DNA from: Spirochaetota bacterium
GTDB taxonomy: Bacteria; Spirochaetota; UBA4802; JAFGJZ01
NCBI GenBank assembly: GCA_027858855.1
Contig: JAQIBV010000050.1
Location: 1 to 64,000 of the forward strand
Length of the DNA stretch: 64,000 nt
Direction of reading: 5' to 3'
How positions within the stretch are numbered: position 1 is the stretch's first letter; the number at the start of each line of letters is the position of its first letter. The notes beneath the pieces are model-generated. The model made no database searches. It was not told where the DNA came from and saw only the letters and a list, made by a program, of their open reading frames with translations. A program made the translations under genes and the position numbers. Below are positions 12,040 through 61,807 of this stretch, in pieces.

Positions 12040-12077
12040 AATCTTTACTCCTTCTGTTAAATAACTAATTTATAATT

Positions 12078-12878: not shown

Positions 12879-12893
12879 ACTGTACTACCCCTT

Positions 12894-13946
12894 TCATTTG
12901 GACATTTTTGTTAAAAGTTCCGAGACCACCTTTCCGGTGTAATCTACCAAAGGAACTACGGTCTTGTAATTCATACGTGTTGGTCCGATTATTCCAACAA
13001 CTCCAACATGGTTATTACCGATCTTATAGGCAGTTGTAACAAGACTGCATCCATTAATGCTGCCTTCGTCTATCTCTTCACCAATCAAGGTCGAAACACC
13101 ATCACTACGCATATTCCGTTTTAGAATGAAAATCAAATTTTTTCTGTCTTCAATCAAATGTAAAAACGGTAACAAAAGCGCTTCATCAATCATTTCAGGA
13201 ATCTTGAGTATATTCTCAATTCCTTCAATATATAGATCCTGACTCTCATCTTCGACAAGTGCCAACTCTACAATATCTATAGCAAGCTGCATCTCGTTGT
13301 TCGGGTTCAGCTTTGCTCGCAACTCATTGAGTACAGAATCTTTAATCGCAAAGATTGAGTAACCATTCAACTCTGACGTTAAATACTTGGAAAAGCGATG
13401 AAGCTCATCCTGATTCAAAACTTGTGAAACAGATACCCTCTTATTAAGTACGATGCCGGTACGGGTAACCAGAATAAAGAGCATGTTACCCTGCCCTAAA
13501 GGAACCAGCTCAACATGCTTTACTACTGTAAAGTCAGGCTTCGGAGTCAAAATAATTCCGGCATACTTGGATATATCCGAAAGCATACGTGTTACCGAAG
13601 CAAACATCTTGTTAAGCTCTATCTCACGGGTCAATACATCCGATTTTATACCTGAGAAATCTGCCTGCTTTAACTCATACGAACCGAGCAACCTGTCGAC
13701 ATAGTAGCGATATCCCTTATCAGTTGGGACACGACCAGCAGATGTATGAGGTTGAGCCAGATAATTCAGAGCCTCGAGGTCGAACATAATGTTTCGCATT
13801 GTTGCCGGTGATATATTAAATGAGTATTTTTGGACAAAAGATCGCGAACCTACAGGCTTACCGGTGGCGATATATTCGAAAACCAGTGCGCCAAGGACAG
13901 CCGACTCCCGCTCAGTCAAATTTCTCTGTTGTTGATCCTGTTCCAT
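12894..13946 (-). CDS. hrcA: Heat-inducible transcription repressor HrcA
   Basis: A 350-residue HrcA repressor. The N-terminal winged-helix region shows the family sequence LTERESAVLGALVFEYIATG and a recognition segment SPATMRNIMFDLEALNYL. The C-terminal dimerisation part includes GSINGCSLVTTAYKIG and VGIIGPTRMNYKTVVPLV. HrcA binds the CIRCE operator and needs GroEL for activity in studied species. A perfect CIRCE lies 13 bp upstream of its own ATG, so the gene is autoregulated and controls the downstream chaperone genes. Confidence 0.96.
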   Translation of the reverse strand: MEQDQQQRNLTERESAVLGALVFEYIATGKPVGSRSFVQKYSFNISPATMRNIMFDLEALNYLAQPHTSAGRVPTDKGYRYYVDRLLGSYELKQADFSGIKSDVLTREIELNKMFASVTRMLSDISKYAGIILTPKPDFTVVKHVELVPLGQGNMLFILVTRTGIVLNKRVSVSQVLNQDELHRFSKYLTSELNGYSIFAIKDSVLNELRAKLNPNNEMQLAIDIVELALVEDESQDLYIEGIENILKIPEMIDEALLLPFLHLIEDRKNLIFILKRNMRSDGVSTLIGEEIDEGSINGCSLVTTAYKIGNNHVGVVGIIGPTRMNYKTVVPLVDYTGKVVSELLTKMSK

Positions 13947-13958
13947 AACCCCACTCGA

Positions 13959-13985
13959 TTAGCACTCAGATATATAGAGTGCTAA
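13959..13985. promoter_or_regulatory. CIRCE operator (HrcA-binding site)
   Basis: TTAGCACTC, nine bases, GAGTGCTAA: a perfect match to the CIRCE consensus, placed between the -10 element and the hrcA ATG where bound HrcA would block transcription. Confidence 0.97.
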
Positions 13986-13986
13986 T

Positions 13987-14015
13987 AAAATAGGAATTTA
14001 GGCCCTATTCGTCAA
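13987..14015 (-). promoter_or_regulatory. hrcA operon promoter
   Basis: On the minus strand, -35 TTGACG (14015-14010), a 17-bp spacer, and -10 TATTTT (13992-13987) sit directly upstream of the CIRCE element. This looks like a housekeeping sigma-70 promoter repressed by HrcA. Confidence 0.7.
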
Positions 14016-14219
14016 GTGAATTAATGAAATTTTTAGTTTTTTTGAGGATATTTACGCATATATGGCTTATTCTGTTAAGGATAACCGGCATATGCTTACG
14101 ACTATTCGAATGAAACAAGACATATGAGACAATTTAAACTTAATCATTTGTAACAAAGCCATGGATTTCTTTTCATTGATTTATCAATATATTTTAATAT
14201 ACTGCAATGGAGTAAAATT

Positions 14220-14624
14220 ATGAAAATTTCTTCTTTATTATTGCTTATAATCAGTATCTTTTCCTGTAAAGGATATGCAAATTCATCAAATGAATCAGTC
14301 GTTCACCTTGGAGCACTGGATGCAGCAGATCTAATAGATAAGAACGAAAACAATAAGTCTTTTATAATTTTGGATATTCGTACTCCTGGCGAGTATCAAT
14401 CCGGACACATTGAAGGAGCAGTTAATATTAATTTCAGCAGCAGTCAATTTGCAGAGAATTTAGAGGTTCTCGACAAAGATAAGAGCTATTTAATTTACTG
14501 TCGAAGTGGTAATCGTAGCTATAGCTCCCTGTCAGTCTTTAAACGCCTTGAGTTTAAAGAGGTTTTCCACCTGAAACACGGCATCATTGACTGGACAAGG
14601 AACGGTTTGCCACTTGTGGAGTAG
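14220..14624 (+). CDS. Rhodanese-domain lipoprotein
   Basis: A 134-residue protein. The N-terminus is a short hydrophobic signal ending in SIFSC, compatible with a lipobox, so the mature protein may be a membrane-anchored periplasmic lipoprotein. Residues 30-134 form a single rhodanese domain with the DIRTPGEYQSGHIEGAVNI signature and an active-site loop YCRSGNRS whose cysteine would carry the persulfide. Rhodaneses move sulfane sulfur. The next gene, a CoA-disulfide-reductase relative, is a known functional partner of rhodaneses. The ATG has a GGAG site 7 nt upstream. Confidence 0.85.
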   Translation: MKISSLLLLIISIFSCKGYANSSNESVVHLGALDAADLIDKNENNKSFIILDIRTPGEYQSGHIEGAVNINFSSSQFAENLEVLDKDKSYLIYCRSGNRSYSSLSVFKRLEFKEVFHLKHGIIDWTRNGLPLVE

Positions 14625-14821
14625 AGAAAGGACTAAAGAGACCGTCTCGGTCGCTCAAACAGTACTTCACTGGAAATTGTAATTAATTACTGTGTGAAAG
14701 TTGTTTTTGCTGTAGACTTATCTTAAACTTCATCTAGGCAGAATTATTTCTTGGGGGAAAAATTCTATTCTTTATACGCTATGTATAAAATGAATTTCTT
14801 ATTAAGATTAAAACGCAGGCT

Positions 14822-16171
14822 ATGAATAAAAGAAAACTGGTTATTATTGGTGGAGATGCAGCAGGCATGACTGCTGCATCAAAGATCAGGCGTTTGCAGC
14901 CTGATCGTGAGATTGTTGTATTTGAGCGAGGAAGTTACACCTCTTACTCGGCTTGTGGTATGCCCTATTTCATAGGCGGACAGGTCGAATTGGCGGAAAA
15001 GCTTATTGTCCGTAAACCTGAAGTTTTCAGGCAAAAACAGAATATTGACGTGCGAATTCGCCATGAAGTAATTGAAATTGACCTGAAGAATAAGTCTGTT
15101 AATGTCAAAAATCTTGATGAAAAGAGAGATTTCCGGGAAACATGGGATGACCTGCTTATCGCGACAGGAGCCGTTCCCCTTTTACCCAAAATGAAAAACA
15201 GTTAGGCCGCTGGAATTTTTGCTCTTTCAACACTTCAAAGCGGGATAGATATATTCGACTTCATAAAAACGAAAAAACCGACTAATGCAGTAGTCGTAGG
15301 TGGCGGTTACATCGGTATTGAGATGGCTGAAGCTTTTCTTGATCGCTCAATTAATGTCACCATGATTGATATGACTCCACAATTAATGGCTACCCTTGAT
15401 AAGGATATGGCCGACATTATTTTAGAGTTTATGACGAAGCAGCAGGTAAAAGTTTGTCTGAACGAGAAACTGATTGAATTTGAAAAAAATGACGATGGTA
15501 GCGTTAAATCGTTAATAACAGATAAACAGACTATTCCCGCCGACATTGTCATTCTTGGAATTGGAGTAAAACCCAACTCTGAGCTGGCAGCCCGAGCCGG
15601 CATAAAATTGGGTGCAAAAGAAGCTATTCAGGTAAACAATCGCCTTGAAACGTCTGTACCCAATATTTGGGCAGCTGCTGATTGTGCTGAATCCTTTCAC
15701 CTGATTACAAAAAAACAGGTTCACAATGCCTTGGGAACTGTTGCAAACAAACATGGCCTGGTTGCAGGAATCAATATCAGTGGCGGTATGGCTGAGTTTA
15801 CAGGTGTTTTGGGAACTGTCATTACAAAATTCAGAGAGCTGGAAATATCGCGCACAGGCCTATCTGAAAAAGAGGCTAAAGAGTTGGGGTTTGATTACGA
15901 AGCCCAGACAATCATTTCAGCTTCCCAGGCAGGCTACTATCCAGGCTCAGAAAAAATAAGCGTGAAACTTGTAGTTAACAAACAAAGCCAACAAATTCTT
16001 GGTGGGCAGATTATCGGATTTAACGGTTCAGCCAAACGAATCGACATTATTGTTACAGCAGTTACAGCCGGGTTAACAGTACAGCAATTAATAGATCTTG
16101 ATCTGGCATACGCCCCACCATTTTCAACCACCTGGGATCCAGTGCAAATTGCTGCACGACAATTTGTTTAA
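14822..16171 (+). pseudogene. CoA-disulfide reductase/NADH-dependent persulfide reductase, interrupted by in-frame TAG
   Basis: A FAD-dependent pyridine-nucleotide disulfide oxidoreductase of about 449 codons. It has the N-terminal FAD loop VIIGGDAAGMTAAS, the redox-active cysteine in YSACGMPYFIGG (as in CoA-disulfide reductases), the NAD loop VVVGGGYIGIEMAEA, and the late motif NIWAAADCAES. A TAG stop at 15203-15205 interrupts it after LPKMKNS, in the linker before the NAD domain. Homology resumes in the same frame immediately (AAGIFALSTLQSG), so this is a point nonsense mutation, not a frameshift. Unless the stop is read through, the gene is inactive. Its neighbour is a rhodanese, matching sulfane-sulfur metabolism. 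Confidence 0.85.
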
Positions 16172-17866: not shown

Positions 17867-18458
17867 TTTATAGGAACACCCTGCATACGCAGGATAAAAA
17901 CTCCTCTGTTAATAGTGTCGGTAATCCCGAAAAATGCATAAGTATTTTTTAATGAGACATAAGAAAAAGTGAGATTTTCAGGAGATCGAGGTTAAGACCA
18001 CAAGGCCTGAAATACACCTGAAGCTTGAAAGATTAATTGCAGAAGTAATCCATTGTCTACACCAGACCGTTTGCAAATCCCTAAACAATTGCACTGATAT
18101 CCAATTTTCAAAGAGCTTCTAATGAGACATAATACGGTATGGCGCTAAAGATTGCAAGAAGAAAACCGCTGTTTTTTTTACCGTTTCCGACATTATTTAT
18201 TCTATTAAACAAAATCCAGGAGTCATTATTTAAGGGAGGCAAAAAAAATGAGTTTATCCATAAGAAATTCCAGAATTTATTCCAACAAGTTACATTTACC
18301 AAATTTTGAAAATACAAACAACCGAGTAAATACAGTTCCTTTCAGCTAAAATGTTATCTATACAGACCGCTTTTGCCAACAGATAGTTTTTTTAATTTTT
18401 TTTTACACTTCTGCCATCAACTTACGTCTTCTTTAACAAGTTGTTACGGAGGTATTTA
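17867..18458. other. Divergent intergenic region between flgB and an orphan gene
   Basis: About 590 bp with no convincing gene. The 13-bp sequence TAATGAGACATAA occurs twice (about 17951 and 18120). A short CCTGCATACGCAGG-type palindrome lies near 17880-17893, just upstream of flgB. I could not find a convincing sigma-28 promoter. Confidence 0.45.
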
Positions 18459-18923
18459 ATGAGCAGAAATGATCCTATAATAAGAACTTCAGTCAGTGTT
18501 CAACTGAAGTGGAAACTTTTTCTGGAAGAATATGCAGAAAATCACTGCATATCTGTGTCTGAGTTAATCAACACTCTACTTGAAAAGCAACTGCTAAGAA
18601 TGAAGGAATATCCTGAAAGCAGTTACAGTGCTATGAAGTATCAGCCTCGTGGGCTGGGTTACAAACCGGTTCACCTTAATTTAAGGTTTGTTAAGTATAG
18701 CAGATTGAAGGATGTTATGTGTGTTTTTCGTTTTACTCTTTCCTATATTCTGTCCCTTGCAATGGAATCTTTTGACGAATTTATGGATTCTGACAAAAAT
18801 CTGGATTGTTATCCACATTTTTGTCATAGTACGATCATTACAGAGGTAGAAAACATCACGGTATTCGCTAATTACTGGGGAATACCCCCTGGAGAGCACA
18901 CAATAACAGTACCACCCGGTTAA
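18459..18923 (+). CDS. Orphan 154-residue protein, paralogue of 32229-32693
   Basis: A 154-residue protein that is about half identical by eye to the product at 32229-32693. The N-terminal 50 residues (IIRTSVSVQLKWKLFLEEYA, then SVSELINTLLEKQ) have the strand-helix-helix pattern of ribbon-helix-helix DNA-binding proteins. A conserved core YQPRGLGYKPVHLNLRF leads to a hydrophobic helix and a C-terminal motif NYWGIPPGEHTITVPPG. The core vaguely recalls leptospiral DUF1564 proteins. The ATG at 18459 has a strong GGAGG 6 nt upstream. No partner gene is adjacent. Possible role: transcriptional regulator; unproven. Confidence 0.6.
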   Translation: MSRNDPIIRTSVSVQLKWKLFLEEYAENHCISVSELINTLLEKQLLRMKEYPESSYSAMKYQPRGLGYKPVHLNLRFVKYSRLKDVMCVFRFTLSYILSLAMESFDEFMDSDKNLDCYPHFCHSTIITEVENITVFANYWGIPPGEHTITVPPG

Positions 18924-32228: not shown

Positions 32229-32693
32229 ATGGTGGGAAACGGTACAATAATTAGAACTGGAATTAGTGTGTGCATAAAGTGGAGAAAAAAAATTGAAGAA
32301 TACGCTAACAATCATAATTTAAGCAGTTCTGATGTTATGAATATCTTGCTCGAAAAACAGATCAAAAAGATGTCGCGAAAACCACAAACGAACCACAGAG
32401 CAATGAAATACCAGAAGCGAGGTCTTGGTTACGAATCTATGCATCTAAATATTTCATTTGTTCTCTACAGCCGATTGCGGGATGTTATGTTTATTTTCCG
32501 TGTTACTCTTTCGTACATGCTGTCAATGGCTATGATGTTTTTTGATGAATTCATGAAATCAGCCGAAAAGATGGATTGTTATCCCTCAACCTCACACAGT
32601 ACTACAATAACTGATGAAGAAGGGATGCTAATTTTCGTAAATTACTGGGGAATCCCACCCGTAAAACACACAATAACCGTCCCAACCGGCTGA
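32229..32693 (+). CDS. Orphan 154-residue protein, paralogue of 18459-18923
   Basis: It has the same length and layout as the product at 18459: an IIRTGISVCIKWRKKIEEYA ribbon-helix-helix-like start, a YQKRGLGYESMHLNISF core, a hydrophobic helix (VTLSYMLSMAMMFFDEFM), and a nearly invariant C-terminus NYWGIPPVKHTITVPTG. GGAG stands 8 nt before the ATG. Conservation is strongest in the C-terminal motif and the core, which are presumably functional. The neighbouring genes (Rpn nuclease, transporter) give no hint of role. Confidence 0.6.
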   Translation: MVGNGTIIRTGISVCIKWRKKIEEYANNHNLSSSDVMNILLEKQIKKMSRKPQTNHRAMKYQKRGLGYESMHLNISFVLYSRLRDVMFIFRVTLSYMLSMAMMFFDEFMKSAEKMDCYPSTSHSTTITDEEGMLIFVNYWGIPPVKHTITVPTG

Positions 32694-47865: not shown

Positions 47866-48966
47866 CTACCCTGCTAACTCATTTTTTACTAGCGCAAGTG
47901 CGTTGATGAAGGTCTGTTCCATGCTGTAAAGAGTGTAGTCTGAAAGTCGTCCTCCGAAGATGACTCCCGCTTCGGCATCGGCAAGTTCACGGTATTTTAT
48001 ATATCGATTGTGGTTTTCGCTGTCTTTCACCGGATAACAGGGTTCTCCGCCCTTTTTTGTGGATGCCGGATACTCGTGAGTCACGATAGTTATCGGCTGT
48101 CGTCCTCGTTCAAAATGCTTATGCTCGATAATTCGAGTATAGGGGACCTCTTTCCCAGTATAAAAAATAACAGCAGTACCCTGATGATTGCGGGTATTCA
48201 CCAGCTCATGCTCATAATAGAGTCCGTAATAGTCAAGAGAGCCAAAACGATAATCGAAGTATTGATCAATGTTCCCGGTATAAACGACCCGGTGAGCCAT
48301 GGATGTCAATTGATCCCGGTTTTCAAAGAAATCAGTGTCAAGCTTTAGAGCAATTCCCGAAAGAAGATTATCAAAGAGCGGATTATAACCGCCAACTGGT
48401 ATTCCCTGCCAGGTGTCGGTATGATATCGGTTATCATAGGTATAGCGAAGTGGCAGGAGAGCCCCTAGCGCAGCAATAGGTGGTAGTTTTTCACAGGGAG
48501 TTCCGGTTAATTTTTCTGCAAAGTCTTTAACCAGCTTTTCGTAAATGTCCTTACCGTAAATTGAAAGCGCCTGCTCCTCAAGGTTGAGCGGTTTCTCATA
48601 ATGAACACGTTGCGATTCAAGACGAGCACGAGCCTCTTCGGGGTTAACAACCGACCAGAGTTTATTTAAGGTGTTCATATTACATGGCAGGTTGTACATC
48701 CAGCCCTGATAAAGAGCCATTGGTGAATACTGAAAGTTGTTAAATGAGACAAAGTCATTTATATAATCCCAAACCTCAATATTTGCTGTGTGAAAAACAT
48801 GGGGTCCGTATTTATGGATATTTATACCCTCTTCATCCTGGCAGTAAAGGTTGCCACCAACATGCTGACGTTTATCTACAACCAGAACAGACTTGCCTCG
48901 TTTTTTTGCCTGGTGCGCAAAAATAGAGCCAAAAAGCCCGGCGCCGACAATTAGATAATCATACAT
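47866..48966 (-). CDS. glf: UDP-galactopyranose mutase
   Basis: A 366-residue FAD-dependent enzyme making UDP-galactofuranose for surface glycans. The FAD loop is LIVGAGLFGSIFAHQA, followed by the flavoprotein signature KRQHVGGNLY and the GLF-type KYGPHVFHT. Active-site features include YTGNIDQYFDYRFG and a late EAGVIFGGRLSDY region with the conserved arginine. GGAGG lies before the ATG. It borders the surface-polymer locus, so galactofuranose is a likely component of the same glycan. Confidence 0.96.
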   Translation of the reverse strand: MYDYLIVGAGLFGSIFAHQAKKRGKSVLVVDKRQHVGGNLYCQDEEGINIHKYGPHVFHTANIEVWDYINDFVSFNNFQYSPMALYQGWMYNLPCNMNTLNKLWSVVNPEEARARLESQRVHYEKPLNLEEQALSIYGKDIYEKLVKDFAEKLTGTPCEKLPPIAALGALLPLRYTYDNRYHTDTWQGIPVGGYNPLFDNLLSGIALKLDTDFFENRDQLTSMAHRVVYTGNIDQYFDYRFGSLDYYGLYYEHELVNTRNHQGTAVIFYTGKEVPYTRIIEHKHFERGRQPITIVTHEYPASTKKGGEPCYPVKDSENHNRYIKYRELADAEAGVIFGGRLSDYTLYSMEQTFINALALVKNELAG

Positions 48967-49501: not shown

Positions 49502-50629
49502 ATGAAAATTGAAGAACTACTAGATCTGATACATGAAAACGGGATCGACTTCTTTACCGGAGTACCCGACTCGCAGTTGAAAGCACTGTGCGATACCCTC
49601 TATTCTAAATATGGAACTACAGAAAAACATGTTGTTGCTGCAAACGAGGGCGCGGCAGTGGCACTTGCCGCCGGCCATTATCTGGCAACGGGAAAGCCTG
49701 CACTTGTGTACATGCAAAATAGTGGAATCGGAAACGCGGTTAACCCGATCTGCTCTCTTATTAATGACAAGGTATATGCCATACCTGTGCTCTTTATAAT
49801 AGGATGGCGTGGAAAACCTGGCACTCATGATGAACCACAACATATTTTTCAGGGTGAAATTACAACCAGTCTGCTCGATCTGCTTGATATCGAGACCCAT
49901 ATACTCACCGACAAAACCACAACCGAAGAACTTGCCGCCATGAACAACAGTATAAAAAAGACACTTGCTAATGGCAGAAGTGCAGCCTTTGTTGTAGAAA
50001 AAAATGCCCTGCAAACTGACGCCAAAACAGATTTTAAAAATGGCTACCCTATAAGTCGCGAAAGAGCAGTTGAAGTTATTACCCGAAACACAGACAACAG
50101 CGATGTCTTTGTTTCGACAACGGGGAAATTGTCTCGTGAACTCTATGAAATCAGAGAGGCCGCCAACGAAGGGCATGAGAAAGATTTTCTGACAGTTGGA
50201 TCCATGGGGCACAGTATTATGATTGCCTGCGGTATAGCTGCTCAGAAAAAAGAACGCAGAGTTTTTTGCCTTGATGGTGATGGAGCAGTGCTTATGCACA
50301 CGGGAAGCCTTGCAGTTTGCGGTTCACACGCCTACCCTAACCTTGTACACATTGTATTAAACAATGGGGCTCACGAATCGGTGGGGGGAATGCCGACTGC
50401 AGCCGAAGCTATTGATCTTTTATCAATTGCAGGAGGATGTGGTTACAAACAAACATATAGCGTACAAAACGAAAATGATCTTATTAACACACTTGAAAAG
50501 ATAAAAACAGTTGAAGGCCCTATCTTCATTGAAGTAAAAATCAATATCGAATCACGCGGAGACCTGAGCAGGCCAACAAGCACACCACAGCAGAACAAAC
50601 AGGCCTTTATGGAACACCTGAAGAACTGA
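49502..50629 (+). CDS. Phosphonopyruvate decarboxylase
   Basis: A 375-residue thiamine-diphosphate enzyme that pulls the unfavourable PEP mutase reaction forward by decarboxylating phosphonopyruvate to phosphonoacetaldehyde. The N-terminal pyrimidine-binding half has FTGVPDSQLKALCDTL and the conserved glutamate in AANEGAAVALAAGHYLATGK. The C-terminal half has the TPP motif GDGAVLMHTGSLAVCGSHAY, closing with LNNGAHESVGG. CCGGAGAGT lies before the ATG. It is the first gene of the cluster, with a LicC-like gene 41 bp downstream. The usual partner gene, PEP mutase, is the third gene. Confidence 0.93.
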   Translation: MKIEELLDLIHENGIDFFTGVPDSQLKALCDTLYSKYGTTEKHVVAANEGAAVALAAGHYLATGKPALVYMQNSGIGNAVNPICSLINDKVYAIPVLFIIGWRGKPGTHDEPQHIFQGEITTSLLDLLDIETHILTDKTTTEELAAMNNSIKKTLANGRSAAFVVEKNALQTDAKTDFKNGYPISRERAVEVITRNTDNSDVFVSTTGKLSRELYEIREAANEGHEKDFLTVGSMGHSIMIACGIAAQKKERRVFCLDGDGAVLMHTGSLAVCGSHAYPNLVHIVLNNGAHESVGGMPTAAEAIDLLSIAGGCGYKQTYSVQNENDLINTLEKIKTVEGPIFIEVKINIESRGDLSRPTSTPQQNKQAFMEHLKN

Positions 50630-50670: not shown

Positions 50671-51378
50671 ATGAAAGCTCTTATATTGAACTCAGGCGTT
50701 GGCAAACGGATGGGAAATCTGACAGCTGACCGTCCTAAATGCATGGTAGAGGTCGAGGGCGGACTATCCACCCTTGATTTTCAGCTCTGTATACTTGAAA
50801 AATGCGGTATATCGGATGTTGTGATTACAACAGGCCCATTTGAAGAGATGCTACAGAAACATGTTTCACAAACCTACCCCTTTTTAAATGTAATTTATGT
50901 AAATAATCCGGAATATAAAAAGACTAACTATATCTATTCCATTGCATTGGCAAAAGATCAACTGGACGATGACATTATCCTGATGCATGGTGACCTTCTC
51001 TTTGAGGAAAGTGTTTTTCAGGATATTTTACTCAGCAAAAGTAGTGTAATGGTTGTTGACAGCACACTGCCTTTACCGGAAAAAGATTTTAAAGCCGTGA
51101 TTGATAATAATCGAATAACCAGGGTTGGGATAGAATTCTTTAAAGATGCCTGTGCCGCGCAACCACTGTACAAGCTGCTTAAAAACGACTGGACACTATG
51201 GCTAAATAAGATTATCGAATTTTGTGATAATGGCATTCGGGATGTCTATGCTGAAAATGCCTTGAACGAAATATCCACATCTATCAATATCGAAGGATGC
51301 GACATTAAAGGTCGCCTATGCGGAGAGATCGATACAAAAGAAGATCTGATAAAAATAAAGAAGTTCCTTAAATCCTAA
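50671..51378 (+). CDS. LicC/PntC-like cytidylyltransferase
   Basis: A 235-residue nucleotidyltransferase. The NTP-binding loop is LILNSGVGKRMGNLTADRPK, close to the LAAGxGxRLxPLTxxxPK signature with AAG replaced by NSG. Later features are NNPEYKKTNYIYSIALAKDQ, the metal-binding MHGDLLFEE, and ENALNEI near the end. Relatives activate phosphocholine (LicC) or phosphonates such as 2-aminoethylphosphonate (PntC) with CTP. Standing between the decarboxylase and PEP mutase genes, it is the best candidate to make the CMP-phosphonate. Substrate unproven. Confidence 0.8.
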   Translation: MKALILNSGVGKRMGNLTADRPKCMVEVEGGLSTLDFQLCILEKCGISDVVITTGPFEEMLQKHVSQTYPFLNVIYVNNPEYKKTNYIYSIALAKDQLDDDIILMHGDLLFEESVFQDILLSKSSVMVVDSTLPLPEKDFKAVIDNNRITRVGIEFFKDACAAQPLYKLLKNDWTLWLNKIIEFCDNGIRDVYAENALNEISTSINIEGCDIKGRLCGEIDTKEDLIKIKKFLKS

Positions 51379-51392
51379 AAAGTGAGAAATTA

Positions 51393-52691
51393 ATGAAAAA
51401 AGTATACCTGAGCATGAGCTCTGACATCATCCATAACGGCCACATAAAAATAATCTCTAAAGCAGCTACTCTGGGTGAACTAACTGTTGCGGTATTAACC
51501 GACGAGGCCGTTGCAAAATATAAAAGATACCCTCTGATCCCCTTTGAAGAGCGAATAGAAATCATCGGAAACATTAAAGGTGTATCAAATGTTGTTCCGC
51601 AAAATACAATTGGCTATGAGGAAAACCTGCTAAAATATAAACCGGATATCGTTGTTCACGGAGACGACTGGAAAATAGGCTTTCAGGCTCCCATTCGTGA
51701 AAAGGTAATCGAAACATTAAAAAGTTATGGTGGTGAACTTATTGAATTCCCCTATACTAACGATAGCAACCTGATCGCTATTGAGAAAAATGCCCGCAAA
51801 ATTCTCTCTATGCCCGAAAACAGGCGTTCAAGATTGCGCACTCTGTTGAACCATAAAAAATGTCTGAGCATTATGGAGGCACATAACGGATTGACCGGGC
51901 TTATCGTAGAAGACACCAATGTCGAATCTGAAGGTGAAATTCGACAGTTTGACGGAATGTGGGTTTCCAGCTTGTGTGATTCGACTGCAAAAGGAAGACC
52001 CGACATAGAACTTGTAGATACAACATCACGAATCAGCACCATTCACGAGATTATGGAGGTGACGACCAAGCCCATAATTCTGGATGGAGATACTGGCGGC
52101 CTTGTAGAGCATTTTCAGTTTTTTGTTAAAACACTAGAGAGAATGGGAGTCTCGGCAATAATTATTGAAGACAAGGTTGGCTTAAAGAAAAATTCACTTT
52201 TTGGCAACGAGGTTGAACAGTTTCAGGCCCCTATCTGTGATTTCTCCGAAAAAATCCGTCTTGGTAAATTAGCTTTATCTACATCTGATTTTATGATAAT
52301 CGCCCGGATTGAAAGCCTGATACTTGAACAGGGCATGGAAGACGCCCTTACACGTGCCTTTGCCTATGTCGAAGCCGGGGCAGACGGGATAATGATTCAT
52401 TCAAGACAAAAAACTCCTGACGAGATCATCGAGTTTATTGGCTCGTTTCGAGCTCAAGACAAAGAGACTCCGATTGTAATTGTTCCAACAACCTTTAACA
52501 CCGTTACTGAAAACGAATGGGAAAAGATGGGAGTAAATATTATCATTTATGCCAATCAGTTAATCAGAAGTGCTTTCCCTGCCATGAAAAAAACTGCTGA
52601 GACAATCCTTACTAATAACAGATGCCAGGAAGCCGATGCAAACTGTATGCCAATAAAGGAAATATTAACACTGATACCCGACGCTAATTAG
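51393..52691 (+). CDS. PEP mutase with N-terminal cytidylyltransferase-fold domain
   Basis: A 432-residue fusion. Residues about 1-140 have the TagD/cytidylyltransferase fold: HNGH at 14-17 and HGDDWK at 89-94. Residues about 155-432 are PEP mutase, with the signature EDKVGLKKNS (259-268), DGDTGG (231-236), and IMIHSRQK. It converts PEP to phosphonopyruvate, the entry to nearly all C-P bonds. In the fused domain, the position where such proteins normally have a GISST nucleotide motif reads YTNDSNLIAI (121-130), so nucleotide transfer by this domain is doubtful. AGTGAGAAATTA precedes the ATG. Confidence 0.93.
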   Translation: MKKVYLSMSSDIIHNGHIKIISKAATLGELTVAVLTDEAVAKYKRYPLIPFEERIEIIGNIKGVSNVVPQNTIGYEENLLKYKPDIVVHGDDWKIGFQAPIREKVIETLKSYGGELIEFPYTNDSNLIAIEKNARKILSMPENRRSRLRTLLNHKKCLSIMEAHNGLTGLIVEDTNVESEGEIRQFDGMWVSSLCDSTAKGRPDIELVDTTSRISTIHEIMEVTTKPIILDGDTGGLVEHFQFFVKTLERMGVSAIIIEDKVGLKKNSLFGNEVEQFQAPICDFSEKIRLGKLALSTSDFMIIARIESLILEQGMEDALTRAFAYVEAGADGIMIHSRQKTPDEIIEFIGSFRAQDKETPIVIVPTTFNTVTENEWEKMGVNIIIYANQLIRSAFPAMKKTAETILTNNRCQEADANCMPIKEILTLIPDAN

Positions 52692-52703: not shown

Positions 52704-53807
52704 GTGAGTAAGCAACAACAGGTAATCAGAGAAAATGATGGATACAAAAAAATTGAAGAAATTTTAAGGAGTCATCACTCCTCTAAATTTCTTCTGGTAT
52801 GTTCAAGACGTGATAATCCTGTTAAAGATTATTTAATCAGCCTGAATGTTGAGCATGCTGTTTACAGTGATTATCAGCAAAACCCTCTTTACAGGAATGC
52901 TGCCGAAGGTGTTGATCTTTTTAAAACAGAGGGCTGCGACTTCATTATTGCCATTGGTGGCGGAAGTGCAATTGACGTTGCTAAATGCATAAAACTTTTC
53001 TGCAAGATGGATGAATCGATCTGCTATCTTGATCAGACTTTCACAGATACAAAAATTCCTCTTATTGTTCTGCCCACAACTGCCGGCGCCGGAAGTGAAG
53101 CCACAAAATATGCGGTAATATATAAAGATGATGTAAAACAGACGGTAACTCATGAATCAATTATACCTGATTATGTGATACTGGAGCCCTCTTTTCTTTC
53201 GACTATTCCCGAATACTATAAAAAAAGCGCAATGCTTGATGCACTGTGCCAGGCAATTGAGTCCATGTGGTCTGTAAATTCGACGAACGAAAGCATGGAG
53301 TACTCCAAAGAATCAATAGAACTTATTTTAAATGGATATAAAAATTATCTTGATGGCGATCAGGAAGCCGCAAGATCCATTATGAATGCTGCAAACTTAA
53401 GCGGCAGGGCTATAAACATTACACAGACAACCGCCGCCCATGCCATGAGCTATAAACTGACCTCGCTGTACCGGATCGCACACGGACATGCAGTTGCACT
53501 GTGTTTACCCTATGTGTGGGAATACAGCTTGAATCATCCCGAAAAGATTACCGACACAAGAGGCGTCTCGCATCTGAATTCAGTTTTCGCACAACTTAAT
53601 CACCTCTTCGGCTCTGATAGCACGCAAGACTCAATACTGCTCTTCAGAAAACTTGTGGAATCTTTAAATCTTGAAATCTTCCAAAACGATGTCTCTATCC
53701 TTGCCGCATCCGTAAACCCTGACAGACTTAAAAATAATCCGGTAAATCCGGGAGCAGACGGCATAACAAAGATGTATACAGCATTACTCAATGAAATTAT
53801 AGGGTAA
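52704..53807 (+). CDS. Iron-containing alcohol dehydrogenase, probable phosphonoacetaldehyde reductase
   Basis: A 367-residue group III alcohol dehydrogenase. NAD binding: GGGSAIDVAK (85-94). Later PTTAGAGSEATK and metal ligands in DALCQAIESMW, AAHAMSY and HGHAVALCLPYVWE. In phosphonate clusters such enzymes (PhpC/FomC-like) reduce phosphonoacetaldehyde to 2-hydroxyethylphosphonate. With no transaminase (AEP route) or phosphonatase present, hydroxyethylphosphonate is the predicted product. GTG start with AGGAG upstream; it begins 12 bp after PEP mutase. Confidence 0.88.
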   Translation: MSKQQQVIRENDGYKKIEEILRSHHSSKFLLVCSRRDNPVKDYLISLNVEHAVYSDYQQNPLYRNAAEGVDLFKTEGCDFIIAIGGGSAIDVAKCIKLFCKMDESICYLDQTFTDTKIPLIVLPTTAGAGSEATKYAVIYKDDVKQTVTHESIIPDYVILEPSFLSTIPEYYKKSAMLDALCQAIESMWSVNSTNESMEYSKESIELILNGYKNYLDGDQEAARSIMNAANLSGRAINITQTTAAHAMSYKLTSLYRIAHGHAVALCLPYVWEYSLNHPEKITDTRGVSHLNSVFAQLNHLFGSDSTQDSILLFRKLVESLNLEIFQNDVSILAASVNPDRLKNNPVNPGADGITKMYTALLNEIIG

Positions 53808-53918: not shown

Positions 53919-54389
53919 ATGACAAATCAAAAAAAGATAATAATAACTTATGGCACCTTTGACATGTTCCATATCGGACATCTTAACCTTCTTAAACGGT
54001 TAAAGTCGATGGCCGATACTGTGATTGTTGCTGTTTCAACTGACGAGTTTAACCTGCAAAAGAACAAGAGAACGATTATTCCGTTTGAACAGCGCATCAA
54101 AATAGTTGAGTCCATCCAGTATGTCGACAAAGCCATTCCCGAAATCTCATGGGATCAGAAAACATCTGATATAGAAAAATACAATGTAGATATTTTTGCA
54201 ATAGGAAAAGACTGGGAAGGCAAGTTTGATTTTTTGTCAGACTACTGTGAAGTTGTCTATCTTACACGAACCAAAGGTATTTCATCCACAGAGATAAAAA
54301 AATCTTTAAAATCGCTGCTCTCTATTCCTCACGCAGAACTAAGAAGAGCATTCGATATTCTTGAAATTTTGAGAAAAGATCTGGAATGA
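53919..54389 (+). CDS. Glycerol-3-phosphate cytidylyltransferase-like (TagD family), copy 1
   Basis: A 156-residue enzyme of the TagD family, making CDP-glycerol from CTP and sn-glycerol-3-phosphate. GTFDMFHIGH (12-21) contains the catalytic HxGH, and RTKGISSTEI near residue 117 is the second nucleotide motif. I start at 53919 because copy 2 begins at the same place and no ribosome-binding site supports 53868. Its stop overlaps the next ATG as ATGA, so the product should be used by the TPR-LicD protein and by the three CDP-glycerol transferases opposite. CDP-ribitol or other alcohol phosphates are alternatives. Confidence 0.88.
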   Translation: MTNQKKIIITYGTFDMFHIGHLNLLKRLKSMADTVIVAVSTDEFNLQKNKRTIIPFEQRIKIVESIQYVDKAIPEISWDQKTSDIEKYNVDIFAIGKDWEGKFDFLSDYCEVVYLTRTKGISSTEIKKSLKSLLSIPHAELRRAFDILEILRKDLE

Positions 54390-55774
54390 AATTACCAATA
54401 CCTATGATTAAAACAGTTAAAACTCTAAGTCATCGATTTCCTCTCTATCATCTACTACCACAAGGTGACAGGAAAGAGATACTGAAAGACCTGTACTATA
54501 ACTACCACAACAAATATGAAAAACTTCTGTACGAATTTAAACAAAAAGGATATGAAAAGATATCTTGTAAAAATTTAAAAACAATAATTCCATTTCTTGA
54601 AAAGGCCGGACATCATGAAGAGTTGAATAATTGTCTAGATGTTGCTTTACAGTATTATCCCGAGAATTCTTTTTTTTACATGTATTTCGCACGATATTTC
54701 CATTTTCAAAACAATATTGATGAAGCACTGAAAATGGCAAAGAAGGCATTTACTTTTGACCCGGCAAACACTCAAAATATCGCATTGATGGTTACACTGA
54801 AATATAAAAGAGATAACCGCGAAGAAGCAGACAAATATGCACTGAAATTACTTGAGAAGTTCCCCCTCAATCTGAAAATCCTGTGGAGTGTTTGTAATCA
54901 ATGTGTAACCGAAAAACAGTTTAACAAAATTCATAAAATTTGGCAAGGCGCCCTGAATAAAAGAAGTAATCAAAACAAACTGTATGTAAAAACAGTTCCC
55001 GCGATTGTAACTGCAGCTGCCCGTGCCAACCTGTTTAAGGAGGGTATTCAACTATCATTTGAAGCTTCTCTAAAGATTGTCAAAAAAGAGGTTTTAATTA
55101 CAAAAAAACCTAAAAATCTTAGAAACAAATACACAATGAATGCAATACGTGATATCTGCGAAGTTTTTTATAATTGTGGAGTTCCTTTTTTCTTTGCTGC
55201 CGGCACAGCACTGGGTTTCATCAGAGAAGGCAAAGTTCTGGAACATGACGCAGACATAGATGTAGGTATCATGGAAAATGATTGGGCGCCGGATAAAATT
55301 ATGGAAGCGTTTAAAAAGCACCCTCACTTTGTGTTTGAGATGCCTCATCCTGATAGTCCCAAAATAGGACTTGTTCACTGTGGTGGAGCTGATATAGACA
55401 TATTTAAGTTTTATAGGGAAACTGATTCATTGTTCCATAACGGAGGATTCATACGTTGGAAAAACAGCATTTTTAATATTAAAAAATACTGTTTTAGTGG
55501 AACCGAGATTTATCTCCCTGACCCGGCAGATAAGTACTTAACCGAAAACTATGGAAATTGGAGACTGCCTGACCCTGAGTTTGATGCCTTTTTGTACGCA
55601 CCTAATACAGAAGTAACATGGCCTGAATATCTGGAACTTATTGTCGCACGCTCACTTTATAAATCGCTCATTTACAATAAAATGAAAAAGACCCGAAAAA
55701 TTGCTAACGATTACAAAGAGTTTTTAACACGCACTCCGACCGGACAAGAGCTACTACAACAGTTTTTAAAATAG
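54386..55774 (+). CDS. TPR-repeat LicD/fukutin-family phosphotransferase
   Basis: A 462-residue protein. The first ~230 residues are helical TPR-like repeats (NNIDEALKMAKKAFTFDPAN). The C-terminal part has the LicD nucleotidyltransferase core: FAAGTALGFIREGKVL then HDADIDVGI (the Asp-x-Asp metal site) near residue 290, and CGGADIDIFKFY, ending PDPADKYLTENYGNW. LicD proteins add phosphocholine to glycans; fukutin and FKRP add ribitol phosphate. Coupling to tagD suggests that here glycerol phosphate, or the CMP-phosphonate, is transferred. The TPR arrangement is less usual. It is intact, with no signal peptide, so it is presumably cytoplasmic. Confidence 0.85.
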   Translation: MKLPIPMIKTVKTLSHRFPLYHLLPQGDRKEILKDLYYNYHNKYEKLLYEFKQKGYEKISCKNLKTIIPFLEKAGHHEELNNCLDVALQYYPENSFFYMYFARYFHFQNNIDEALKMAKKAFTFDPANTQNIALMVTLKYKRDNREEADKYALKLLEKFPLNLKILWSVCNQCVTEKQFNKIHKIWQGALNKRSNQNKLYVKTVPAIVTAAARANLFKEGIQLSFEASLKIVKKEVLITKKPKNLRNKYTMNAIRDICEVFYNCGVPFFFAAGTALGFIREGKVLEHDADIDVGIMENDWAPDKIMEAFKKHPHFVFEMPHPDSPKIGLVHCGGADIDIFKFYRETDSLFHNGGFIRWKNSIFNIKKYCFSGTEIYLPDPADKYLTENYGNWRLPDPEFDAFLYAPNTEVTWPEYLELIVARSLYKSLIYNKMKKTRKIANDYKEFLTRTPTGQELLQQFLK

Positions 55775-55837: not shown

Positions 55838-57043
55838 TCAGGTTTTACCAGCACTTAATTGCTTAATTAAAGCCGCCACCCTTTTTGATGATCCGTAATC
55901 GCTAAACCTGTAAAACATCTTAAAGCTATAATGGAACATCTGATTAGTTACAGCAAATTCATTACGGCAAGCATCATTAACCGCAGTAAAGAGTTCTTCA
56001 AAATTAGCTACAAGAGGCCCGGGGAAGATATCCCTGTATTCATAAATGAGTCCACGATCCTTCATATATTCTTCATAGTCATAAGCAAACCCTATCACCG
56101 GTTTTTCTACAAGAAGATAATCAAGCCACAAAGAGGAGTAATCGGTAAGAAGGAGATCAGTTGTTCTCAATATCATCTGTACATTGTTGAATTTTTGACT
56201 GCTCAGATCAATAATTCGTTCATGGTTATAAAGACCATCCCTGTAATTAGTAAAATAGTCGTGAGTTCTTAACCCGAGCACGGCATTATTCTGTTCAAGC
56301 AGATTACACAAGCGATACAGTTCTGTAGTTGAAAAAGGATAAACACCCGAAAAAAACTTTTTTGGAGCCGGATTTCGGAATGTTGGTGCGTATAACACCA
56401 GTTTTTTACCATCAAGAAGTTCTTTTAAAGAATCATATTCCTTGCGCATTTCGGCAGGTAAATTATTAATGGGCATTTTCATCCAGTCGTTTCGGGGAAG
56501 TCCTGTGATAAAAAATCTAGAGTATGGGATATTGAAGCACGCGCTCATGGCCAGTTTATCTACTTTTGAGGAACAGATAATTCCGGTACAATTAGCCTCC
56601 TCCTTTTTAAAATTATTTTTCAAATTAGCATAACCCGAGGCAGATGTATATCTCAGCCCCTTTACCGGTATACCATGCCATAAATTAATAATAACCCTTC
56701 TTCTTTCGGTTATTCCAAATACGAAAAGATCGTTACGGGCATGCTGAATAATCAATACGCGAGTTTTAAATAAAAGTAAAAGACCCTTTATACTATTAGT
56801 TTTAATGATTTTTTTACTAATAATTTTTTCTAGATTTTGATTATTTCCGTTTACCGAAGTTATCTCGTATACAATATCGGGATCATTTTTAATATATTCC
56901 CATAACGCGCGAATATTTCCATTAAAAAGATCATCGCGACCAAGCTGAAAAACCCAAATTTTTTTGTTACGGGGATAAAGCAAATCAATAACATTAATAA
57001 TTAAATTTACGACGCGATAAATTGTACGAGTGACTATTTTCAT
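55838..57043 (-). CDS. CDP-glycerol glycerophosphotransferase-like (TagB/TagF family), third of three
   Basis: A 401-residue transferase that adds glycerol phosphate from CDP-glycerol to a sugar or polymer. NLWHGIPVKGLRYTS near residue 120 carries the catalytic His, and LLTDYSSLWLDYLL near 300 carries the late Asp/Ser motif; YDYEEYMKDRG and FPGP follow. It lacks the N-terminal glycosyltransferase domain of some TagF proteins. ATG 4 bp after the previous gene's stop. It faces copy 1 of tagD and is intact. Confidence 0.9.
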   Translation of the reverse strand: MKIVTRTIYRVVNLIINVIDLLYPRNKKIWVFQLGRDDLFNGNIRALWEYIKNDPDIVYEITSVNGNNQNLEKIISKKIIKTNSIKGLLLLFKTRVLIIQHARNDLFVFGITERRRVIINLWHGIPVKGLRYTSASGYANLKNNFKKEEANCTGIICSSKVDKLAMSACFNIPYSRFFITGLPRNDWMKMPINNLPAEMRKEYDSLKELLDGKKLVLYAPTFRNPAPKKFFSGVYPFSTTELYRLCNLLEQNNAVLGLRTHDYFTNYRDGLYNHERIIDLSSQKFNNVQMILRTTDLLLTDYSSLWLDYLLVEKPVIGFAYDYEEYMKDRGLIYEYRDIFPGPLVANFEELFTAVNDACRNEFAVTNQMFHYSFKMFYRFSDYGSSKRVAALIKQLSAGKT

Positions 57044-57047
57044 CTAA

Positions 57048-58250
57048 CTAGCTCCTCTGCAATGACACTAATTCGGTTAAAAATCGGGAAGTTGAATAAT
57101 TATCCCTGTATTTATGAAATCTGTCTGCAAATGAATTATATGATTGTCTGTAGTTTTTTGACACAGACCATTTTTTGTGACTTATGAGAAGTTTCATAAG
57201 TTCAGCTTCATTCTTTGCAAAAGGACCCGGAACAGTTTCATAATAGTCGAAATACATACCTCTGCATTGTGATAAGTAGTATTCGTAGTCGTATGAATAG
57301 AAGATGACGGGTTTACCAGTTAAAACAAAGTCAAAGAACACACTGGAATAGTCGGTAATGAGTAGATCAGTAAAGCATAATAGTTGTTGAATGTCATCAT
57401 AAAGAGAGTTTACGTCAATTATGTTTTCATACCCCGAAATTATTAATGATTTATCGTGAGGATGCTTTTTAACCAACATAATTGATTCTGTTTTTTTAAG
57501 ATAATTATCAAGTTGCACCAGAAAAGAGTCTGAAAACGGATTATTCTGATACCCACTGTCACGAAATGTTGGAGCATAAAGAAATATCTTATCTGATTTA
57601 CGGAATTTTGCAGGCAAAAGCTCTTTACTATACTTTGCGAACAGGATGTCATTTCGGGGAAACCCGGTAATTATGATGTTTTTTGTATTAAAAGCTTTAC
57701 CAATATTTTCAGCTTCTGTATTGGATGCGGCTATTATGAATCGGTATTTTTTGTATTCGAGAGTCTGAAGATATTTTTTTATAGAAGAATAGACACTTTT
57801 GAATAAAGAACTATTGAATAATTGTTCGTGATTTTTAAATTCATCCAGACCGATATATTTCAAAGCTATTCCATGCCAGGTCTGGATTATACTGAATCTG
57901 CCGAACAGTGTACCCATGTACGAAAAATCTTTCACAGAAAAATCGATTATTATGAATTCTGCCCACAGTACAGATAAAAAACCATTTAACGAAAATTTAA
58001 ATACAACAGGCAAATTATCATTTTTTAAACTTTTATAGACATCTTTATTGGCGGTTATCCAAAGGGGTTTCAGCTCCGGGAATTTTGTAGTTATAATATA
58101 TTCAAAGATATATTTGGGGTTTCCTTTGTAAACCTCTCCCCGCCCTGCACCGAAGAGAATCAGATTCTTTTTTTTGGGCACAAGCCTGGACAACACAGCA
58201 AGCAATAAATTGATAATTATATGTACAGAGTTCACTTCGAAACTGATCAT
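57048..58250 (-). CDS. CDP-glycerol glycerophosphotransferase-like (TagB/TagF family), second of three
   Basis: A 400-residue paralogue of its neighbours. The motifs are TWHGIALKYIGLDEF, ITGFPRNDILF, FLYAPTFRDSGY and LITDYSSVFFDFVL with SYDYEYYLSQCRGMYFDYYE. The first hydrophobic residues suggest a membrane-associated start. In teichoic-acid systems one such enzyme primes and another extends the chain; sequence alone does not say which role this has. A 90-bp gap separates it from the first copy. Confidence 0.9.
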   Translation of the reverse strand: MISFEVNSVHIIINLLLAVLSRLVPKKKNLILFGAGRGEVYKGNPKYIFEYIITTKFPELKPLWITANKDVYKSLKNDNLPVVFKFSLNGFLSVLWAEFIIIDFSVKDFSYMGTLFGRFSIIQTWHGIALKYIGLDEFKNHEQLFNSSLFKSVYSSIKKYLQTLEYKKYRFIIAASNTEAENIGKAFNTKNIIITGFPRNDILFAKYSKELLPAKFRKSDKIFLYAPTFRDSGYQNNPFSDSFLVQLDNYLKKTESIMLVKKHPHDKSLIISGYENIIDVNSLYDDIQQLLCFTDLLITDYSSVFFDFVLTGKPVIFYSYDYEYYLSQCRGMYFDYYETVPGPFAKNEAELMKLLISHKKWSVSKNYRQSYNSFADRFHKYRDNYSTSRFLTELVSLQRS

Positions 58251-58340: not shown

Positions 58341-59552
58341 TTAATTCTTTAGATTTTTTTCTTCGGATAGATACTCGATTAACCTTTTTGATGAATTGCC
58401 ATCTTTGTAGCGATTAAACCTGTTATTGAAATCCTGATATTTTTTTTGATAACTCTTTTTGCTGAACCATGAGTCCAGGTTTTCGATGAGACTAAAAAGT
58501 TTTTCTGGATCATCGGCAAAAGGACCGGGTAATTCTTTATAAAAATCATAGTACATGCCCCGGCAAAAATCGACGTAATCTGGATAGTCAAAACAGTAGA
58601 AGATAATTGGTCGCTGCAGAAGGGAAAAGTCGAAAAGCACGCTTGAATAATCGGTTATCAGAACATCTGTCTGAACCAGAAGTTCCATTACATCAGGAAA
58701 CAGGGATGAAACGTCAATAATTCTTTTAGAATTAACCGGAACTGAAAGAGAGCTGTCATAGGGATGTTTTTTTATGCAGAGTATGGCATCAGACTTTTCA
58801 AGAACATTTTCCAGTCTGATGGAATCCTGTATAGAAAATGGATAGTTGGAACTTATATCGCGAAACGTGGGGATATAAGATATTACATTTTTATGCTTAA
58901 TACTTACTATGTCTTTGATTTTTACGCTAATAGGAATGTTGTTATTAAAGAAAATATCATTACGGGCAAAACCGGTTTCGATTATTTTATCACAACCAAA
59001 AGCTGTTTTATAGCACTTCGTGCATTCAGGGCCGCTTGAAGTAATGATCTGATATCTGTTATACAGAAAGTGCTTTTTGAAAAGATTTCTAAGACATACC
59101 ACTATCGAAGATAAAATCGAGCTGCCACTGGTATAAGCAGCAATTCCCTTCTTTTCGTCATTCGCGTCATTTCCGATCTTTTTAAGAGGCATGCCATGAA
59201 AGGTTTGTACATACGAGAACCGCCCCAGGGCGTGAACACCCGCGTATATTATATCGCGCGGCATGATTTCAATAAAGAGATACTTAGCCCTCAATATGGT
59301 AAAAAAACCGCGTAAAGAATACTTATTTATTACAGGATCCCCTCGTTTTGCAAGATCAGCTTGTAGTTTTTTATTCCCCACTATCCAGACAGACCTGACA
59401 GACGGCAAATTATTAACACAATACAGGAACACATACTTGGTATTTCCCTTGAAATCGTGACCATCACCCGCACCAAAAACATAAAGTTTGTTATTTTTTG
59501 GTATTAGATAGGAAAAATAGAAGAGTAGAGAGTCCAGTAGTATATTTATCAT
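58341..59552 (-). CDS. CDP-glycerol glycerophosphotransferase-like (TagB/TagF family), first of three
   Basis: A 403-residue paralogue with TFHGMPLKKIGND, IETGFARNDIFF, YIPTFRDISSNYPF and LITDYSSVLFDFSL then FCRGMYYDFYKELPGPF. It starts a three-gene unit on the minus strand. Its upstream region (59553-60221) is shared with tagD copy 2 in the divergent direction. The early residues FGAGDGHDFKGNTKYVFLY are typical of the family. Confidence 0.9.
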   Translation of the reverse strand: MINILLDSLLFYFSYLIPKNNKLYVFGAGDGHDFKGNTKYVFLYCVNNLPSVRSVWIVGNKKLQADLAKRGDPVINKYSLRGFFTILRAKYLFIEIMPRDIIYAGVHALGRFSYVQTFHGMPLKKIGNDANDEKKGIAAYTSGSSILSSIVVCLRNLFKKHFLYNRYQIITSSGPECTKCYKTAFGCDKIIETGFARNDIFFNNNIPISVKIKDIVSIKHKNVISYIPTFRDISSNYPFSIQDSIRLENVLEKSDAILCIKKHPYDSSLSVPVNSKRIIDVSSLFPDVMELLVQTDVLITDYSSVLFDFSLLQRPIIFYCFDYPDYVDFCRGMYYDFYKELPGPFADDPEKLFSLIENLDSWFSKKSYQKKYQDFNNRFNRYKDGNSSKRLIEYLSEEKNLKN

Positions 59553-60221: not shown

Positions 60222-60692
60222 ATGAAAACAGAGCAAAAACGAATAATCACATATGGAACTTTCGATATGTTTCATATTGGACACCTAAATCTTCTTAAAA
60301 GATTAAAATCCATGGCTGACACGGTTATTGTTGCCGTTTCGACAGATGCGTTTAATCTGGAAAAGAACAAAAAAACCATAATTCCATTTGAACAGCGGAT
60401 AAAAATTGTAAAATCAGTTAAATATGTAGATATGGTTATACCTGAAGAGAGCTGGGAACAAAAAACATCTGATATAAAAGAATATGACATAGATATCTTT
60501 GCTATAGGCCGAGACTGGGAAGGTAAATTCGATTTTTTAAAGGATTACTGCAGAGTTGTTTATCTTGAACGCACAAAAGGCATTTCATCTACTGAAATAA
60601 AAAAATCGCTTAAATCACTTCTCTCGATACCACAAGAAGACCTGCGTAAAGCATTTGATATTCTCGAAATATTACGAAAGGACCTGCAATAA
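60222..60692 (+). CDS. Glycerol-3-phosphate cytidylyltransferase-like (TagD family), copy 2
   Basis: A 156-residue protein about 80% identical by eye to copy 1. It keeps HIGH at the active site, GRDWEGKFDFLKDYC and the RTKGISSTEI motif. It is intact and should be active. Its stop codon (TAA, 60690-60692) occupies the place where copy 1 has the overlapping ATGA; here the overlap reads ATAA, which removes the start of the following licD-like gene. The duplicated cassette may supply extra CDP-glycerol or be dying. Confidence 0.88.
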   Translation: MKTEQKRIITYGTFDMFHIGHLNLLKRLKSMADTVIVAVSTDAFNLEKNKKTIIPFEQRIKIVKSVKYVDMVIPEESWEQKTSDIKEYDIDIFAIGRDWEGKFDFLKDYCRVVYLERTKGISSTEIKKSLKSLLSIPQEDLRKAFDILEILRKDLQ

Positions 60693-61409
60693 GTATTAAA
60701 AGACTATTAATAAATTTCGTAATATTTTTTGTTAACCGGATACCTCTATATCTGCTTATACCTCAAAACAGAATTCGTGATAAGTTTATGGAAAAATACC
60801 TTACCCATAAAGACAAGTACGATAAAATCTTATCACAGTACCGGCGAAAAGGATACAGGAATCTTACAAAATGTGATCTTAAACTTATTGTTCCTCATTT
60901 GATGAAGACTGGTCAGGATAACGACCTGCAGCTATGTCTCAATATTGGGCTAGATAGTCATCCTGAAGAATTATTCTTTTACATACAGCGTGTCGAATAT
61001 CTCATGTTTCTCGGTGATAACAGTTCAGCTCATGATTTGATAAAAAAAGCACAATTTCTGTATCCCGGCAATGCTCTATGCGCAGCTCTTTCAGTGGCTC
61101 TTACCTATCAGGTAGCGAATAATATTAATGAAGCCTATAAATTTACCTGATCCGGCAGATAAATACCTTACAGAAAATTATGGAGACTGGCGAAAACCGG
61201 ATCCATATTTTGACGCTTTTTTGTACGCTCCCAATACAGAGATTATATGGCAAGAATACAGAGACCTTCAAGCAGTTAGAACAATTTATAACTCATTATG
61301 TTATAAAAACAGGGCCAGAGCCAAAAAGGTTGCAATGGATAATTTGAATCTACTTACCATGACAACAGAAGGCAAAATGCTGGCACAAATTCTGGTTAAA
61401 CAAAAATAA
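60689..61409 (+). pseudogene. Decayed TPR-LicD paralogue with large internal deletion
   Basis: A remnant homologous to 54386-55774. Residues matching the N-terminal TPR part run to EAYKFT, where a stop occurs; the C-terminal segment NLPDPADKYLTENYGDW to the end follows at once, one base out of frame. About 220 codons, including the whole AAGTALG/HDADID catalytic core, are missing between them. The original start codon reads ATA instead of ATG. It cannot encode an active LicD enzyme. Confidence 0.85.
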
Positions 61410-61422
61410 GTACAATATTAAA

Positions 61423-61807
61423 ATGAAAACAAATACAATAAACCGTGACGAGATAATTATTCTGGCGATATCTGCAATTAAATCCGGTAAAATTAAAGGC
61501 TTTTTTTATTGATCATCCCGATTTTAAAGTAGCTCCGGTTGACATAACATCAGATAGAATAAGAATCAATCACAAAAATGGTGTCGCCATTGATATGTTT
61601 CCGCATTATATGGAAGAAGGCCGAAGATGGCATAACGGCACGGCTACCCGCTGGTGGAATACTGAATTTAGTTTAAAGACGATAGAGTTTTTGAAAACCG
61701 TTTTATATGTGCCAGAAAATCTTGTTATGATTAAACGCTATTGCGACTCTCTTAATCAGATAGGTGAAGGAACATGGGTGAAAAATATAAAGGATCAAAC
61801 GACATAA
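61423..61807 (+). pseudogene. Fragment of a second LicD-family gene
   Basis: A short ORF from the ATG at 61423 stops after a run of seven T (61501-61507). In the next frame it continues FFIDHPDFKVAPVDITSD, RIRINHKNGVAIDMFPHYME and WWNTEFSLKTIEFLKTV, ending at 61807. This matches the second half of the LicD catalytic domain, the region before the PDPADKYLTENYG ending. The N-terminal AAGTALG half is missing. The homopolymer frameshift and truncation mark a broken gene, distinct from the pseudogene just upstream. Confidence 0.75.

Follow-up and report, generated by a model that had tools for sequence, protein, structure and literature searches.

A glycerol-3-phosphate cytidylyltransferase gene, tagD1, runs directly into the gene of a LicD-family protein, LicD1, in the window, by which we mean the whole stretch of 64,000 nucleotides that was analyzed. 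Which donor does LicD1 use: CDP-glycerol made by its neighbor, as the first-pass annotation proposed, or another activated compound for which the same locus carries genes? The features at the center of this question are the following:

53919..54389, plus strand: tagD1, glycerol-3-phosphate cytidylyltransferase (over the TIGR01518 cut-off; 1coz, 6e-48)
54386..54389, plus strand: ATGA overlap of the tagD stop and the licD start, read from the sequence
54386..55774, plus strand: TPR-LicD1, with TPRs at about residues 60-232 and a LicD/FKRP-type catalytic domain at about residues 245-461

The ATGA overlap described in that annotation is present in the sequence, and we infer translational coupling from tagD1 to licD1. 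The tagD1 product is 156 aa long, with an ATG start in line with its relatives, and the licD1 product has 462 aa. The reading of TagD as a CDP-glycerol-forming enzyme also holds, since TagD1 and its paralog TagD2, described below, score 166.8 and 168.6 bits against the TIGR01518 equivalog cut-off of 165.4, and the closest solved relatives of TagD1 are the glycerol-3-phosphate cytidylyltransferases 1coz and 2b7l.

The two halves of LicD1 were assigned by HMM matches and an AlphaFold model (pLDDT 88.5), both of which indicate TPRs in the N-terminal half, modeled as helical hairpins at about residues 60-232. The protein scores 20.1 bits with Pfam LicD (PF04991), slightly below the gathering score of 22.6; in a six-frame search, it counted as above that score (31), and homologues of LicD1 exceed the gathering score. 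A PDB search with the LicD1 sequence alone returned mainly TPR proteins, a profile search reached FKRP, and the top 13 Foldseek matches were all FKRP. Four catalytic aspartates, D288, D290, D292, and D338, are invariant over 20 relatives and correspond by motif to D360, D362, D364, and D416 of FKRP (PMC6965139). By modeled fold and by these four residues, the C-terminal half is a LicD/FKRP NTase-fold domain. The TPR half had been called unusual; it also occurs in CpsC-type proteins and in both LicD types of Glycomycetaceae (LicDa and LicDb), and by analogy with what has been discussed for CpsC, it is probably a platform for the acceptor or for a partner protein.

Upstream of tagD1, on the strand of LicD1 and separated by short intergenic gaps, lie four genes of an apparent phosphonate operon:

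49502..50629, plus strand: phosphonopyruvate decarboxylase (Ppd; TIGR03297, 478 bits against a cut-off of 312)
50671..51378, plus strand: LicC/PntC-like nucleotidyltransferase (PF00483/PF12804; best PDB relative LicC 1jyk, 6e-11)
51393..52691, plus strand: cytidylyltransferase-PEP mutase fusion, Fom1-like (TIGR02320, 408 bits, over the cut-off)
52704..53807, plus strand: iron-containing alcohol dehydrogenase (Fe-ADH; PF00465), proposed phosphonoacetaldehyde reductase giving 2-hydroxyethylphosphonate (2-HEP)

The cytidylyltransferase domain of the fusion has its best match in 5x3d (2e-42), a PEP mutase-fused domain in the PDB. In Fom1, the corresponding domain forms CMP-HEP, and phosphonate loci commonly include a nucleotidyl activation step (PMC6697681). 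The best NCBIfam model for the Fe-ADH is TIGR03405 (phosphonate Fe-ADH), with a score below the cut-off of that model, and the role of phosphonoacetaldehyde reductase is suggested by the operon. The ORF list contains no aminotransferase gene in the operon, so CMP-2-HEP would be a likelier product than CMP-AEP, and 2-AEP was set aside as the phosphonate. The operon for CMP-2-HEP is apparently complete, with licD1 as its last gene. CDP-choline is disfavored as a donor because no choline kinase-like gene was seen among the window ORFs; the LicC-like gene at 50671-51378 keeps it formally possible.

Beyond licD1, three genes of CDP-glycerol-type transferases are encoded on the opposite strand:

55838..57043, minus strand: Glyphos_transf 1 (PF04464, WHG motif; 199.9 bits)
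57048..58250, minus strand: Glyphos_transf 2 (PF04464, WHG motif; 239.4 bits)
58341..59552, minus strand: Glyphos_transf 3 (PF04464, FHG; 245.6 bits)

The WHG motif has been tied to Gro3P polymerases (PMC11666461). Because these three transferases adjoin the pair, TagD has other possible users of CDP-glycerol than LicD1. On the other side of the cluster, a UDP-galactopyranose mutase gene (47866-48966, minus strand) suggests galactofuranose in a surface polymer. Elsewhere in the window, two dispersed ORFs, at 18441-18923 and 32229-32693 (160 and 154 aa), are clearly related and have a common C-terminal end, YWGIPP..HTITVP.

A second tagD-LicD pair, now decayed, lies about 6 kb downstream of the first:

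60222..60692, plus strand: tagD2, at the position of the only tagD of the related genome G001 (over the TIGR01518 cut-off)
60689..61409, plus strand: decayed TPR-LicD2, with ATA at the expected start, the catalytic core deleted, and the frame shifted
61484..61806, plus strand: what is left of a third LicD gene, LicDb type (46-55% to its Glycomycetaceae counterparts, E as low as 2e-26)

Its junction is of the same kind as that of the first pair, with ATAA in place of ATGA. LicD2 and the LicDb remnant (60689-61806) form the same LicDa-LicDb tandem as is found in Glycomycetaceae. While tagD1 and tagD2 are 82% identical, LicD2 and LicD1 are far more diverged, with 34% identity over LicD1 residues 13-152 and 56% over residues 374-460; thus, the two pairs in their present form are unlikely to stem from a single joint duplication.

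The history of the junction can be followed further in G001 (Spirochaetes bacterium Zod_Metabat.857, JAFGRW010000119), which belongs to the same genus. Its cluster has the order Ppd, nucleotidyltransferase, cytidylyltransferase-PEP mutase, Fe-ADH, TPR-LicD, three PF04464 genes, and tagD. The TPR-LicD is 69% identical to LicD1 and begins 54 bp after the Fe-ADH gene, with no tagD between the two. A TagD partner gene of the kind found with CpsC-type proteins is therefore present in the window, joined by ATGA, and absent beside the G001 orthologue. As this orthologue stands directly behind the phosphonate genes, these, and not tagD, are the constant neighbors of LicD1. The sole tagD of the G001 cluster runs via ATGA into a relic of a second LicD, of which only the start, matching LicD2, is left, and coupling of tagD to LicD2 apparently goes back to the genus ancestor. 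A possible relic of a tagD 3′ end upstream of the G001 LicD may be merely a Shine-Dalgarno sequence; if it is a relic, tagD and LicD1 may have been coupled for longer than is apparent. Recent insertion of tagD1 was also considered. The differences at 4-fold sites (0.71 between tagD1 and tagD2, 0.58 between tagD2 and the G001 tagD), together with the possible relic, favor an older duplication followed by loss, and the trees do not resolve the matter.

The relationships of LicD1 were examined in a tree of 48 LicD catalytic domains. LicD1 and its G001 orthologue group with LicDa of Glycomycetaceae (support 100/99), next to LicDb. The other tagD-paired LicDs, like the Bibersteinia and Neisseria proteins of the CpsC type, fall elsewhere in the tree, and the two spirochaete LicDs are set off from actinobacterial LicDa by a long branch. 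LicDa proteins carry Ala272 and Phe342 (Phe in 11 of 12), the latter four residues past the catalytic D338, in place of the Ser and His present in 24 of 24 tagD-type and CpsC-type LicDs compared. By clade and signature residues, LicD1 is thus, as judged from sequence, a LicDa. LicDb proteins from LicDa-bearing genomes also have Ser and His, so Phe342 and Ala272 mark the clade and not a proven donor choice.

The LicDa clade tracks PEP mutase. In a set of 18 other genomes, all three with LicDa have PEP mutase and none has TagD at 1e-20, and the remaining 15 LicD genomes include none with PEP mutase and 12 with TagD. Of 81 Glycomycetaceae genomes, 7 have LicDa, and each of these is among the 10 that have PEP mutase over the cut-off (Fisher P = 3e-8); TagD over the cut-off was found in none of the 81. 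At a loose threshold, most LicDa genomes have no TagD-like match other than the PEP mutase-fused domain, and an extra weak TagD-like gene appears in G818 (next to LicDb) and G827 (elsewhere). Stackebrandtia nassauensis (G850) is one of the seven LicDa genomes, and there the only TagD-like match is again the fused domain. The phosphonate of this species is reportedly 2-HEP, according to a 2014 paper on the phosphonoglycans of Glycomyces and Stackebrandtia. S. nassauensis has been described as a producer of phosphonoglycan (PMC12723261; see also a title cited in PMC8931226). In Glycomyces salinus, G818, and G858, PEP mutase genes adjoin the LicDa-LicDb pair; in most of the other Glycomycetaceae genomes, at least tens of kb separate LicDa from PEP mutase. 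In 8 of 10 loci, the gene immediately preceding LicDa encodes a LicC/PntC-type nucleotidyltransferase. The PEP mutase locus of G818 (L089) holds the weak TagD-like cytidylyltransferase beside LicDb at 10369-10785 and, at 13807-16164, a 785-aa protein that combines many TPRs with a LicD domain.

The tagD-licD pair itself is not unique to this genome. Scans of genome and viral contigs with single proteins gave no matches; an alignment-based profile scan returned 27 loci and one viral contig, and a plasmid search added three more sequences. In 11 further loci from other genera (L023, L029, L030, L031, L034, L035, L042, L045, L046, L049, and L052), tagD lies at most 15 nt upstream of LicD, with ATGA in four. 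In L023 (Octadecabacter arcticus plasmid pOA238_118, 7963-10822), a flagellin gene in a flagellar cluster is followed by a TagD-like gene (8868-9278) that overlaps a LicD gene (9275-10822) by ATGA, a candidate for glycerol-phosphate modification of flagellin. In L051, from an Oscillospiraceae MAG (8972-14476), LicD domains are fused to an apparent family 2 glycosyltransferase, and LicD-like modules are repeated in a single 1170-aa frame.

Given these results, LicD1 is probably a TPR-LicD glycan transferase for a phosphonate, 2-HEP, and its clade is linked to phosphonoglycan synthesis. The scheme proposed here builds on the operon, domains, catalytic residues, clade, and tagD-free synteny read from the sequences. 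PEP mutase would form phosphonopyruvate, Ppd would convert it to phosphonoacetaldehyde, Fe-ADH would yield 2-HEP, and the Fom1-like cytidylyltransferase domain would produce CMP-2-HEP. Using its FKRP-like metal site, LicD1 would then transfer the phosphonate from its CMP-activated form onto a hydroxyl group on the acceptor, presumably a surface glycan or teichoic-like polymer, and the TPR half may hold this polymer or a partner transferase. The main users of the CDP-glycerol made by TagD1 would be the three PF04464 transferases on the opposite strand.

The main rival is transfer of the CpsC kind, in which LicD1, fed by TagD1, is a Gro3P transferase or polymerase that makes or lengthens an oligo(glycerol phosphate) linker shared with the PF04464 enzymes, and another enzyme transfers the phosphonate. 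For the enzyme class, the glycerol-phosphate transfer proposed in the first-pass annotation is sound and already known, as Cps7C, a TPR-LicD, was shown to polymerize Gro3P with a TagD-type partner (PMC11666461), and the pair recurs within 15 nt in the 11 loci of other bacteria. The strongest evidence against the phosphonate reading is that each LicD gene of the genus has followed a tagD across a similar junction: LicD1 through ATGA, and LicD2 in both genomes, with the G001 cluster retaining one tagD and one LicD. The distance of LicDa from PEP mutase in most Glycomycetaceae, the weak TagD-like genes of G818 and G827, and the Fe-ADH score also speak against it, and phosphonate transfer might instead be the task of the PF04464 enzymes. 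For LicD1 itself, glycerol-phosphate transfer is nevertheless unlikely, although it deserves serious consideration: the protein falls outside the CpsC and other tagD-paired clades, its own clade occurs in PEP mutase genomes without TagD over the cut-off, Phe342 and Ala272 set it apart beside the catalytic Asp, and its G001 orthologue is uncoupled from tagD.

A changed or double donor specificity is improbable. It would mean that the clade was phosphonate-specific and that the spirochaete LicDs moved to CDP-glycerol, or take both donors and build a mixed polymer; both donor pathways are intact in this one locus and the spirochaete branch is long, but the LicDa signature residues are retained. 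Least credible of all, to the point of being nearly dismissed, is that tagD happened to be duplicated next to a gene already in place, creating by chance a junction with no functional meaning for either gene. The divergence of the LicDs against that of the tagDs and the absence of tagD1 from G001 would suit such an event, but the second pair and the pairs of other bacteria show the same 4-nt junction.

The steps of surface phosphonate tailoring that follow formation of the C-P bond have been called enigmatic, with nucleotidyl activation shown (PMC6697681). For the transfer step, the TPR-LicD clade described here is a specific candidate that can be tested: it follows PEP mutase across genomes, one of which belongs to a known producer of phosphonoglycan. 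We tentatively suggest that the transferases still missing from phosphonoglycan synthesis are LicD1 and its relatives in actinobacteria, acting from CMP-2-HEP onto a surface polymer, here combined with CDP-glycerol chemistry into a mixed glycerol-phosphate/phosphonate polymer. The locus also serves as a warning that LicD proteins adjoining tagD are not all assignable to glycerol phosphate.

Among known systems, Fom1 has the same cytidylyltransferase-PEP mutase fusion architecture, and CMP-HEP is proposed as the product here too; Fom1 acts in fosfomycin synthesis, whereas this fusion stands in a surface-glycan locus. The FKRP/fukutin ribitol-phosphate transferases share with LicD1 the NTase-fold catalytic domain and four-Asp metal site, but have a stem domain instead of TPRs and CDP-ribitol as the donor, and FKRP aligns with LicD1 over the catalytic domain only (TM about 0.3 of the query). 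Cps7C of Actinobacillus pleuropneumoniae has an N-terminal TPR region, belongs to the LicD family, and receives CDP-glycerol from the TagD-type Cps7B, with D247 and D293 essential (PMC11666461). Cps7C/CpsC and LicD1 are alike in their TPR-LicD order and TagD partner, and the 46-residue spacing of D247/D293 recurs in D292/D338; LicD1 differs in clade, in having Phe342/Ala272 for His/Ser, and in its phosphonate operon setting. LicDa of Glycomyces and Stackebrandtia shows 33-38% similarity to LicD1 over its full length, TPRs included. There it lies beside a LicC/PntC-type nucleotidyltransferase and LicDb with no TagD, whereas LicD1 overlaps tagD; as in the window, a Fom1-like PEP mutase, Ppd, and Fe-ADH co-occur in the LicDa genomes.
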